NCBI GenBank assembly: GCA_030446715.1
Contig: JAUJMU010000005.1
Span: 329,709 to 393,708 of the forward strand
Source: Cytophagales bacterium
Lineage (GTDB): Bacteria; Bacteroidota; Bacteroidia; Cytophagales; 172606-1
Reading direction: 5' to 3'
DNA: 64,000 nucleotides
Shown here: positions 25,167 through 32,930 of the stretch, piece after piece
Layout of the letters: each line of letters starts with the position of its first letter
Numbering within the stretch: the first letter of the stretch is position 1
Program-made: the position numbers and the translations under genes
The notes under the pieces: generated by a model
Database searches by the model: none
Told to the model about the DNA's origin: nothing
Seen by the model: the letters and a program-made list of their open reading frames with translations, nothing else

Positions 25167-26104
25167 TGAGCATACTGCGAAAAATTGAGCCACCCCTGCC
25201 GTTTTCTGTTGAGCAGGGGGTAACGGAGTAAACTGAGCCAGTTGTGGATAAGCAGGCAGGTCAAAAAATAATAGTTTGAAAGTGCTTTGGCTGATAACCA
25301 TTCCAGCCAGCGTCTTTCAAGCCATGGCCAACCTGAGAAAACCCATGTTTCAGATCCGCCGCCTGCCAGAGTTAAAAGTCCAGGGTAAAAGCAAACGCAA
25401 GATTGCCACTGTCCCTAGGCTTTCCCGCAATACCGTCCAGAGTTACCTTGATAGTTTTGAGGGCCACTTTCCGGATCTGTCGGAAGTGCTTCTCTGGAGC
25501 GATGAAGCCCTTGACCGGTTTATCCGCCTGCCCGCAAAAACGGAGACTGTCCCTGATCCGGCTCATGCCGGGTTATACAGGCTTTTTGAGGGCTACCCGA
25601 AAGAACTTGCCAGAACCGGCGTGAGCCGCTACACGCTCTGGATGGAGTACCGGAAGGTGAATCCGGAGGGGTTGAAGTACTCTCAGTTCTGTACCCTTTT
25701 CCGCACCTGGCAAGGGGCCCGGAAGACGGTGATGCACCTGGAGCATAAAGCCGGTGAAAAACTTTTTGTGGACTTTGCCGGCAAGAAGCTGTATCTGACC
25801 AATGCCATCACCGGAGAGGTAACAGCGGTGGAATTCTTTGTGGCCATTCTGCCCTGCTCACAACTGTGTTTTGCCCTGGCGGCAGGTTCCCGGCAGAAAG
25901 CTGATTTCATACCGGCGCTACAAAAGACACTTGAATACATTGGAGGCGTACCCCAGGCTATTGTACCGGACAATCTGAAAACAGCCGTTACCAAAGCTGA
26001 CCGTTACGAGCCACAGATCAACGAGACGATGGAGGACTTCGCCTCCCACTACAAAACCTGCTTTCTGCCGGCAAGAGCGGGTAAACCAAAAGACAAGGCG
26101 AAGT

Positions 26105-26131
26105 GGACCTGACACCTCGTGTCATCGGTCC
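26105..26131 (+). repeat. Hairpin insertion A in istA (GGACC...GGTCC)
   Basis: 27 nt, with outer stem GGACC/GGTCC, inner stem GACAC/GTGTC and loop CTC. It sits after codon AAG of the conserved KDKAK segment. Expected protein here is KAKVE-SAVNILYG; the observed distance is 31 nt too long and a stop appears at once (KAKWT, stop). The flanking T and ACAGGA may also be part of the insertion. Confidence 0.8.
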
Positions 26132-26383
26132 ACAGGAGAATCGGCAGTAAATATTCTCTACGGCCGCATTTACGCTCCCCTGCGAAACCGCGTCTTTCAT
26201 ACCCTTGCTGAACTCAACCAGGCCGTCAGGGAATTGCTTGACCAGCATAACCAGCTGCTCTTTCAGGGCAGGGACTACTCGCGCAGGTCTTACTTTGAGG
26301 CAGTTGAAAAACAGACGCTGCTGCCCCTGCCCGGCCAGCACTACCAGTTGCGCAGTTTCTCCTTTGGCAAAGTACACCCCAAT

Positions 26384-26413
26384 GGACCTGCCAACCATGA
26401 GCATCTGGGGTCC
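26384..26413 (+). repeat. Hairpin insertion B in istA (GGACC...GGTCC)
   Basis: 30 nt, with outer stem GGACC/GGTCC and inner pairing CCA/TGG and ATG/CAT around AG. It lies between codons for VHPN and HVLLKEDKHHY. Replacing it by a single base restores VHPN-x-HVLLKED in frame (net +29). Confidence 0.85.
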
Positions 26414-26614
26414 GCCACGTGCTGCTCAAGGAGGACAAACACCATTATTCCGTACCCTACTACCTGACAGGCAAGCAGGTCAAGCTGATCTGTACAGAGG
26501 AGACAGTGGAGATATATCATCAGCACAAGCGGGTAGCGGTTCACGTGCGGAACGTGCGTAAGTACGGCTACCCGACTCAAAAAGAGCACCTGCCGGCTAA
26601 TCAGCAGTGGGTGT

Positions 26615-26640
26615 GTAGCCGATCTTTGTCGCAGAGGTAC
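26615..26640 (+). repeat. Hairpin insertion C in istA, in frame, different termini
   Basis: GTA-CC-TCT pairs with AGA-GG-TAC around a 7-nt loop with two small bulges. It encodes about ten residues (CSRSLSQRYD) between QQWV and WSVEYFVERA, a junction where IS21 transposases normally have one to three residues. It lacks the GGACC/GGTCC ends and keeps frame, so it may be a relative of the others or ordinary length variation. Confidence 0.5.
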
Positions 26641-26800
26641 GACTGGTCAGTGGAATACTTTGTGGAACGGGCCAGCCGCATCGGCAGCAGTACCCGTTCA
26701 GCCGTGGAAGACTTGCTCTCCGGACGTCCTTACCCGGAACAGGCATACAAAAGTTGTGCAGGTGTGCTTTCCCTGGAGAGGAGATACGGCAAAGACCGGC

Positions 26801-26832
26801 GGACCTCACGATAAGATCGTGATCTCAGGTCC
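26801..26832 (+). repeat. Hairpin insertion D in istA (GGACCT...AGGTCC)
   Basis: 32 nt, with outer stem GGACCT/AGGTCC, inner stem CACGAT/ATCGTG and loop AAG. It splits the conserved SLERRYGKDR / EKACERALLYRA boundary. Replacing it with one base gives KDR-(CNG)-EKACE in frame (net +31). Confidence 0.85.
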
Positions 26833-27067
26833 GGAAAAAGCCTGTGAGCGGGCTCTTTTGTACCGGGCCACTTCCTGCCGGCTGATCTGCACGATTCTGG
26901 AAAAGGAACCCGACCGCCTTCAAACAGATCCACCAGAGAGGAAAGAAGAGAAAATCATCCTGCATGAAAACATCCGCGGGGCACTGGCTTACCAGTAACG
27001 CTGCCATACCGGAACTACTCAATCCATTCTCAATCCCTTATCCTTTCATTTACCTGACTTCTTCGCT

Positions 27068-30627: not shown

Positions 30628-31547
30628 GTCTATCCGAAAACTGGGAGAGAATGGTAATTTTGAAAGACACGACTCAAACAAAACACCATCTCCATGAAGC
30701 CATCGGAACGTGAAAGTACGGTAAACCCGATCTGTTTACCAACAGAAGAACTATGGCTGGCCCTCCAGCCGCTTTTGCCAGCCGAAAAACCAAAACCACG
30801 GGGAGGCAGAAGGAGGGTGGATGATTACAAACTGTTTCAGGCCATGTTCTACGTGCTCAGAACCGGTATTCAGTGGCAGGCGCTGCCCCGGCAGTTAGCC
30901 GCCTGTTCTACTGCCCATGACCGTTATCAGGAGTGGGTAAAGGCAGGGGTGTTTTATCAACTCTGGCACCCTGGTCTGATGCACAATCAGGTGGAAGGGA
31001 ATCCGGACCGGGAGTGGCAATGCATAGACTCTGCTTCCGGCAAAGCTCCCCCGGGAGGACAAGACGCAGGGCCTGATCCAACCCACAGAGGCAAAGGAGG
31101 CACCAAAAGACACATTCTTACCCAGGCCCGCGGCTTACCAATCGCCCTGACGGTAACCGGTGCCAATGTGCATGACAAGAAGCAGGTGAAACCCCTGCCG
31201 GATAGCATGCCCCTGCTGCCACCTTTGCCTGATGAGGAAAATCCGCAGCACTTCCGTGCTGACAAGGGCTACGATTATGAGGACATCCGTACAATCATCT
31301 TTTTGTTTCTTTACCAGGATCACATCAAGGCCCGGGGAGAAGAAAAACAGGAACTTAAAACGCCTGGTTACAGAGCCAGAAGACGGGTCTGTGAGAGAAC
31401 CCACAGTTGGATGAACCGCTTCCGGCGTATCCTGATCCGATGGGAAAAGAAGGTGGACAACTATCTGGCCTTTCTTCACCTTGCCTGTGCCCATATCGTC
31501 TGGAAAAATTGCACTCTTGCCGATCCTTTCCAGGTTTTCGGATAGAC
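30628..31547 (+). mobile_element. IS5-type element, copy 2, complete
   Basis: The ends are GTCTATCCGAAAAC at 30628-30641 and its exact inverse at 31534-31547, flanking one transposase gene; length about 920 bp. A clear target-site duplication is not visible. Both copies in the window have TGAGA just outside the transposase-proximal end, so the true tip may lie a few bases further out. Confidence 0.9.
30694..31545 (+). CDS. IS5-family transposase (full length)
   Basis: The 283-residue protein has the N-terminal IS5 DUF4096-like region (CLPTEELWLALQPLLPAEKP, RRRVDDYKLFQAMFYVLRTG), first Asp in QCIDSASGKAPPGG, second in FRADKGYDYEDIR, and the Glu segment RRVCERTHSWMNRFRRILIR. The catalytic triad appears complete and there is no frameshift, so this copy could be active. 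No hairpin insertion of the kind seen in the IS21 and IS3 elements is present. Confidence 0.93.
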   Translation: MKPSERESTVNPICLPTEELWLALQPLLPAEKPKPRGGRRRVDDYKLFQAMFYVLRTGIQWQALPRQLAACSTAHDRYQEWVKAGVFYQLWHPGLMHNQVEGNPDREWQCIDSASGKAPPGGQDAGPDPTHRGKGGTKRHILTQARGLPIALTVTGANVHDKKQVKPLPDSMPLLPPLPDEENPQHFRADKGYDYEDIRTIIFLFLYQDHIKARGEEKQELKTPGYRARRRVCERTHSWMNRFRRILIRWEKKVDNYLAFLHLACAHIVWKNCTLADPFQVFG

Positions 31548-31709
31548 ACTAAGTACTGTTCAGATTCAGGAAAGGAAAGCAGAAAGGTTATACCTGGGGT
31601 ACAGTATCACCTTTTGGGTGTACTTGATCAAGCCTCCATTTACCTGTTCTGCTTTCGGTTTCGTTACTTACAAAATTGCACTTTCTGCTGTTGCCTCTAA
31701 GATATGAGA

Positions 31710-32320
31710 TCAAGCCCTGGTTTGAGGTCCGCCTATGCCGTCCATGGAAACCCGGATGTTTTGATCCAGCAGCGTGTCCACAAACGCATCACTGGTGAAC
31801 TGCACTCCCTGATCAGTGTTAAATATGTTGGGCCTGCCGAACCGCTCAAGGGCTGTCAGCAAAGCCTTCACGCAAAAACCGCTTTCCATGCTGTTGGACA
31901 ACTCCCAGGAGAGCACGTATCTTGAATACCGGACCTCCGCTGTTCAGGATGTGCAGGTCCATCCATTACCGCTACCAGGTAGAGAAACCCGTTCTTCATA
32001 GGAATTTAAGTAATATCGGTGGACCACACCTGATTGATGAGCATGTTTCTGAGCAGGTAAGAGTACTTCTTATGGGCTTTATTGGCCTTACTCAAATCGG
32101 GCTTGGGATAGATGGCCACGAGTCCCATCAGCCGCCCGAGCCTTCTTACCCGCTTTTCATTTACCATCTCCCCCTGCCTCCTCAGCAACTCGTTCATCAT
32201 CCGGTAACCGGCAAAAGGCGTCTTGAGGTACTGCTCATCAATCTTGCGCATCAACTGCAGGTTCTGCTCACTTTCCCCTTTGGGCTGGTAATACAGCCCT
32301 GATTTGTGCAAAGACGACAA
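31710..32320 (-). pseudogene. IS3-type transposase OrfB, nonsense mutation plus hairpin insertion
   Basis: The frame starts SSLHKSGLYYQPKGESEQN and continues TPFAGYRMMNELLRRQGEMV (HTH_21-like) to NQVWSTDIT with the first catalytic Asp. A TAA then replaces the expected Tyr codon; reading on gives IPMKNGFLYLVAVMD, then a 30-nt insertion, then YSRYVLSWELSNSMESG in a shifted frame and NTDQGVQFTSDAF with the second Asp. The final Glu region is gone. Confidence 0.85.
31931..31960 (-). repeat. Hairpin insertion E in the IS3-type orfB (GGACCT...AGGTCC)
   Basis: 30 nt; on the coding strand the outer stem is GGACCT/AGGTCC and the inner stem CTG/CAG around AA. It falls between codons for VAVMD and the conserved (W)YSRYVLSW; substituting one base (as TGG for Trp) restores the frame, net +29, exactly as for insertion B in the unrelated IS21 element. 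Confidence 0.85.
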
Positions 32321-32351
32321 CTCGCACTGACGGCTCAGGGAAAAGGGCCTT

Positions 32352-32573
32352 TCAGGCCGGTTTACACAGTCCTGCCTTACGGCTCCTGGAAGCGTTGATA
32401 TTTTTTTTGAGCCACTCCAACTCTACTTGTAACTTGCCGATCTGCTCGTAGAGCCGGCTTCGCTCTTCATCAAAAGCCTGTTTTTCTTCCTGACCCGTAC
32501 CTGACTCCTGAAAAATGCTGCTTGCCGAACCCAGCAGCAGCCCTTTCCAGGTGGAGATCTGATCGGGATGCAA
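32352..32573 (-). pseudogene. IS3-type OrfA fragment
   Basis: HPDQISTWKGLLLGSASSIF followed by a coiled coil (RSRLYEQIGKLQVELEWLKK) is the typical C-terminal half of an IS3 OrfA. The part upstream (32573-32700) can be partly read as EVALAR...SQLYPAQQFNLHPDQIS but in broken frames, so no complete OrfA remains. OrfB lies in a different frame, as expected for the programmed frameshift in this family. Confidence 0.75.
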
Positions 32574-32930
32574 ATTGAATTGCTGGGCGGGATAAAGCTG
32601 CTAACTAATTTCTGCTTGAGGGCTGCCGTACCGGACCAGCACGTGCCAGAGCAACTTCAACCTGGAATTGCTCCCTTTTCCTGTAAACATAATCTCTTTT
32701 TCGTTTTTCCGGCAGCAAAAAAACTGCCGGGAACCCTGGCTTACACACCGCTTTGTTCTTCCAGCTAGGCCAGCTTAATCTCAAGAATAATCCGCAGCAG
32801 GCTAATTACCTCCCTAACCGCTAACAAGAATAACCCGTATAATTACAATGCAGGTGAGTTATCTCAGATTGGATGAAGCGATAGTAAAAATGCTCACAGA
32901 AGGGATAAAAGATTGAATTTGCACAGCTCT

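Follow-up and report, generated by a model that had tools for sequence, protein, structure and literature searches.

Short hairpin elements, mostly 26-34 nt long and of the form GGACCT...GGTCC, interrupt transposase genes of insertion sequences (ISs) in a Cytophagales bacterium, and the view that they are mobile, structured and base-replacing is well supported. The case treated here is a 30-nt block within orfB of an IS3-family element, in a stretch of 64,000 nt (contig JAUJMU010000005.1 of assembly GCA_030446715.1, positions 329,709 to 393,708 of the forward strand) that we call the window. We favour, with a probability of about 0.55, the reading that these are tiny mobile DNA elements that usually inactivate the transposase, and that the interrupted IS spreads in trans as a passenger.

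On the minus strand, the block reads GGACCTGCACATCCTGAACAGCGGAGGTCC, with ATGGAT on one side and GGTATTC on the other. A DNA query with the IS3 against 59 genomes found the window copy, six further places in the same genome and copies in G002, a genome of the same genus. Three related copies, 79-80% identical to that of the window (L056 from the window's own genome, L054 and L057 from G002), read GATTGGTA at the corresponding site; they lack the block and have a TGG codon there. The block therefore replaced one T, with a net gain of 29 nt, and the alignment of L053 with the three copies likewise gives 1 bp lost at the element site. A preliminary description, made from the letters of the window, had placed a 30-nt block that splits orfB here and had proposed that a single T would restore a Trp codon. 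The position is right, the relatives' TGG shows T to be the missing base, and the aligned relatives do not carry the 30 nt natively. The inner CTG/CAG stem proposed in the same description fails, since its loop would be of 2 nt and it is absent from the predicted RNA fold of this element, which rests on the outer 6-bp stem and is unremarkable (z = -1.39). The element is identical at 28 of 30 positions to one in an IS1182-type gene of G002 (L087).

The members of the family follow a common plan over several length classes: outer stem, T, x, spacer, y, x', AT, y', outer stem. Within the outer stem, usually GGACC/GGTCC, x pairs with x' and y with y', which is the order of a pseudoknot. In hand-picked sets of three classes, 96.7% (7 sequences), 98.6% (6) and 97.6% (7) of the cells pair, and 6, 6 and 7 cells, respectively, have changed on both sides. 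The covariation scores of the sets (0.220, 0.244 and 0.310) were reached by none of 500 shuffles, and all of the slid controls scored lower. All three helices covary, including those of the pseudoknot; for the outer stem, the pairs GGACC/GGTCC, GGATC/GATCC and GAATC/GATTC occur. Reverse complementation keeps the structural plan.

Candidates number in the dozens in the window's genome (6.43 Mb in 25 contigs). There, GGACCTN{12,30}GGTCC as a bare pattern has 47+50 matches, no enrichment over the 69+55 of its control, while a strict structured pattern (GAGAT NNN ATCTC AT ..., with at most 2 mismatches) matches 6+9 times, against 0 in the reversed control. Since the outer pattern is no commoner than in the control, it is the structure that separates real members. 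The same failure of the bare pattern would suit chance palindromes or an assembly artefact, an explanation that we consider most improbable and that is already refuted for the structured members by their covariation, by the empty sites and by the presence of the same families in independent assemblies, one of them a one-contig genome.

Matches to the strict pattern occur in 4 of the 59 genomes: the window's own, G002, and G004 and G006 from a second genus. As seen in this analysis, the distribution is thus four genomes of one Cytophagales family. G003 and G005 gave low raw counts of unclassified matches (2+3 and 8+7). A scan of genome contigs with the class-A pattern returned six stretches, three from Rhodocytophaga aerolata, two from the Cytophagales metagenome-assembled genome (MAG) YX2bin28 and one from a Mycobacterium MAG; the last was not counted, being probably the listed sequence whose arms are non-complementary. 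The class-D pattern was confined to the window's own genome among 395 Bacteroidota genomes, a draw that held no other family member. The strict pattern had no match in viral contigs, nor had one 30-mer, a short query, in plasmids. We found no earlier description of these hairpins in a literature search that left out subscription journals and preprints.

The hosts are of at least six kinds, namely transposases of the IS3, IS1182, IS256, IS630 and ISL3 types and istA. Beside the elements, Pfam scans matched HTH_21 and rve (IS3), DDE_Tnp_1_6 (IS1182), DDE_3 (IS630), DDE_Tnp_ISL3, ParE_toxin and, under its cut-off, DDE_Tnp_1; the IS256 host was scanned on its intact relative L235 (Transposase_mut), and one IS1182 piece beside an element and the first istA piece gave no match. 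Near-identical elements lie at different positions in genes of different Pfam families: the exact 30-mer GGACCTGAAATAAGATTTCATCTTAGGTCC is present in both IS1182 and IS3 genes, and the istA element at 26801-26832 agrees at 31 of 32 positions with one that lies antisense in the IS3 gene of L191. The preliminary description had seen the same kind of insertion in two unrelated hosts, IS3 and istA, and the hosts found here bear this out. Both IS3 OrfB and IS21 IstA are rve-type DDE proteins, and the contrast of IS3 with IS1182 or IS256 is consequently the stronger one. Nearly all identifiable hosts are transposases. The only clearly non-transposase host seen is in L041, where a 29-nt antisense element (1674-1702) lies between an antitoxin-like open reading frame (ORF) and a ParE-like toxin ORF.

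The same transposase genes carry hairpin inserts of other classes (in L101, L095, L073, L083 and L107), some of which replace a different number of bases: a 15-nt GGAGC..GCTCC, a 19-nt TGACCACGGAATCGGGTCA found at the same site in two genera, a 16-nt GGATC..GATCC and GCGGATG..CATCCGT. In L096 (1676-1768), one element is nested within another. The IS3 copies of these genomes (L016, L054-L059, L062-L065) contain many short stretches, about 9-18 bp, that are duplicated in tandem.

Among 129 deduplicated contexts, 118 have a pyrimidine before the element and a purine after it, and 34, with elements in both orientations, fall on seven nucleotides of IS3 genes, several IS3 subfamilies being hit at the same ones. 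The site SRKGN^C (the caret marks the insertion) accounts for nine contexts, six sense and three antisense; L005 and L016 hold the same element class there in opposite orientations. Insertion at that nucleotide has therefore occurred more than once. The sites also fall in conserved motifs, such as D^T, N^CWD, VMD^W and GSGQN^Y. The unrelated hosts, the match of 28 of 30 nt in IS1182, the pyrimidine-purine flanks and the recurrent IS3 positions, together with the empty sites, support the earlier proposal that the insertion is a mobile unit and not a character confined to a single IS lineage.

When the joined flanks were aligned to relatives, most of the sites listed had lost 1 bp, RL^MKKA 2 bp and the site before AAAAAA 3 bp. 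The net gain of 29 nt, correct for the window element, is thus not a general rule, given lengths of 26-34 nt and the loss of 2-3 bp at two of the sites listed. Two rules for the exchanged base were tried and dropped. That the retained base is always U agrees with the T lost at VMD^W, at IS1182 sites 1 and 2 and in IS256, but among the sites listed GWA^M and VNH^K involve A or other bases, while RL^MKK involves 2 bp and the site before AAAAAA 3 bp. That the lost T follows the strand of the element is contradicted by SRKGN^C and YGSPR, which lose a gene-strand T with antisense elements. Elements also stand just upstream of the IS3 AAAAAA frameshift region in L079, L141, L212, L224, L229 and L230, the last with an intact OrfB; they add a net 27 nt, hence are in frame, and might influence the orfA/orfB frameshift.

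A host defence in which conserved motifs of transposase genes are cut or edited and hairpins stay behind as silencing scars would explain why nearly all identifiable hosts are transposases and why several IS3 subfamilies are hit at the same nucleotides, and intact multi-copy IS3s without elements are also present in G004. We nonetheless regard it as improbable, because interrupted ISs go on multiplying and one element lies between the antitoxin-like and ParE-like ORFs. A satellite resembling repetitive extragenic palindromic (REP) sequences or miniature inverted-repeat transposable elements (MITEs), mobilized by one of the genome's own transposases of a known HUH/tyrosine or DDE kind, would agree in size, palindromic stem and high copy number. 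Its likelihood is equally small: the elements are genic rather than extragenic, the target bases are lost instead of being duplicated or kept, no GTAG/CGTC tag was seen by eye, and the pseudoknot is constrained.

In the reading that we prefer, the elements would be copied or moved as DNA by a putative activity with favoured cleavage sites. This activity could recognize them by their fold, which would be functionally unchanged by reverse complementation. Insertion would normally inactivate the transposase, and the interrupted IS would persist as a non-autonomous passenger, the transposase of intact relatives moving the IS together with its hairpin.

Intact relatives exist for some hosts. In the one-contig genome G004, an interrupted IS256 is present in three identical copies (L231, L233 and L234), in all of which a perfect 20-bp palindrome with a 5-nt loop overwrites the conserved EGKKEVLGIW, as compared to the intact relative L235, which is 84% identical and whose left end matches at 39 of 39 bases. 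Another intact relative, L106, is 70% identical and has similar terminal repeats. An IS1182 bearing three hairpins is present in G004 five times at 100% identity, four times in full and once split, and an IS3 bearing two elements occurs there in eight identical copies.

Several observations weigh against inactivation and passenger spread. For the eight-copy IS3 and the five-copy IS1182, no intact relative comes close (next best matches 68% and 70-80%). The IS1182 copies L073, L095, L101 and L107 carry two or three hairpins each, with no stop codon in the compared segments. Ratios of nonsynonymous to synonymous substitution (dN/dS) between interrupted copies that share elements are low, 0.17 for L107/L112 (206 codons) and 0.20 for L005/L016 (270 codons), and for IS1182 copies dN/dS is about 0.1, interrupted or not. 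In L005/L016, the selection lies mostly in segments B, D and E (P = 0.004, 1e-4 and 1e-4), not in C or F. On the side of inactivation, by contrast, the interrupted pair L080/L219, which shares a D^T element, gives 0.41, and L219 has three stop codons. Against the preferred reading, finally, no mobilizing enzyme was identified, no search for a HUH or DDE mobilizing transposase having been made.

These data bring in the alternative of removable mini-introns or elements like the byps of mitochondria, in which the hairpin would be excised from the RNA or skipped by the ribosome and the transposase still made. Like introns and inteins, such elements would be homing to motifs that are conserved, and the sites do lie in such motifs. 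The recent multiplication of interrupted ISs in a one-contig genome (5 IS1182, 8 IS3 and 3 IS256 copies) and the low dN/dS of interrupted pairs would also suit this alternative, and yeast mitochondrial byps and a Prevotella hop, reported in a review (PMC5009743), offer a precedent. In 25 of the 44 coding contexts with a clear frame, the frames on both sides fit the replacement of one base; yet 13 and 6 fit other offsets, and we conclude that the offsets mainly reflect how insertion works. Moreover, the elements occupy all three codon phases and both orientations, and their length is not constant modulo 3. In the eight-copy IS3, the shift is compensated downstream with the element kept, giving an open frame of 345 codons, and the element is therefore probably translated. 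Further lesions occur in the three-copy IS256 and in L005 and L016: L005 has RVSG for the catalytic-motif WVSD, losing the aspartate (L026 is near-identical), and L016 has a 17-nt tandem duplication and is identical to L033 over 185 compared codons. As lesions of interrupted copies that moved all the same, they speak for the passenger reading, and together with the eight-copy IS3 they weaken the argument that multiplied interrupted ISs prove function. Ribosome hopping with matched codons was dropped, as the phase-0 sites among the junctions worked by hand are mismatched (GAT/CGG, CCT/CGT and AAT/CAT). Removal or skipping as such we consider doubtful, and we think it unlikely that the 27-33-nt pseudoknots are the smallest bacterial homing introns or bypass elements, removed or skipped in the mRNA of active ISs.

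The features of the window are collected in the table. The window IS3 copy has damage beyond the 30-nt block, namely a TAA codon and a 3' end that falls inside a truncated second element; elements related to the class of the latter also occupy the SMDGKG^R site in L082 and L177. Folding is good for two of the three istA elements (z = -3.11 and -2.78) but not for the third (-0.20). An uninterrupted 283-aa ORF, transposase-like by eye, lies between the two damaged ISs (30694-31545). An Rfam scan of the window gave 0 matches at the gathering score.

Table. Hairpin elements and host features in the window (window coordinates)
Feature	Position	Strand	Remarks
IS21-type istA, broken by three elements	25324-26999	+	family from reading of the translation and istB-like neighbour
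27-nt element in istA, GGACCTGACACCTCGTGTCATCGGTCC	26105-26131	+	flanks AAGT and AC, common to related insertions
30-nt element in istA	26384-26413	+	1 bp replaced as compared to L043
32-nt element in istA	26801-26832	+	1 bp replaced as compared to L043 and L171
istB-like ORF, 239 aa	27121-27840	+	Walker-A motif GATGCGKS, by eye
Second element, truncated to the first 23 nt of the GGACCTCAAACCAGGGCTTGATC class	31708-31730	-	3' end of the IS3 copy falls inside
Remnant of IS3-family element	31731-32700	-	Pfam matches to pieces of HTH_21 and rve
30-nt hairpin element in IS3 orfB	31931-31960	-	at VMD^W, where it stands in place of the T in TGG
TAA stop within IS3 orfB	32006-32008	-	TAT in the aligned relatives

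If the elements are merely inactivating satellites, we know of few mobile DNA elements that are as small; they would combine three covarying helices with an insertion that replaces bases and returns to the same nucleotides, and the mobilizing enzyme would be new. REPs are described as palindromes of 20-40 bp in high copy (PMC3733652, PMC2817692 and PMC3711429). The elements resemble the REPs of the REP-associated tyrosine transposase system in being short, high-copy palindromes; however, REPs are extragenic and tagged by GTAG/CGTC, whereas the present elements lie in transposase ORFs, show pseudoknot covariation and replace 1-3 bp, and their listed flanks vary by eye except for the pyrimidine and purine. 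MITEs are likewise non-autonomous mobile inverted repeats, but the elements are far shorter and recur at the same nucleotide, and at the empty sites listed bases are lost, with no MITE-type target-site duplication. Rickettsia palindromic elements also lie within genes; those are palindromic repeats of about 100-150 bp, in frame and translated, while the elements here, of about 30 bp, mostly break the frame. Byps, which are held to be mobile, are known from Magnusiomyces mitochondria and T4 gene 60; like the present elements, they are short hairpin inserts that break reading frames, many per genome. The elements differ from them in occurring in both orientations, on a bacterial chromosome and in transposase hosts, with no matched take-off and landing codons at the junctions worked by hand. 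The review PMC5009743 counts 81 byps in yeast mitochondria and mentions a 29-nt translational hop in an adhesin gene of Prevotella loescheii as never followed up. If the hosts stay functional, the elements would be a bacterial counterpart of the mitochondrial byps, in the phylum of that reported and unexplained Prevotella hop.
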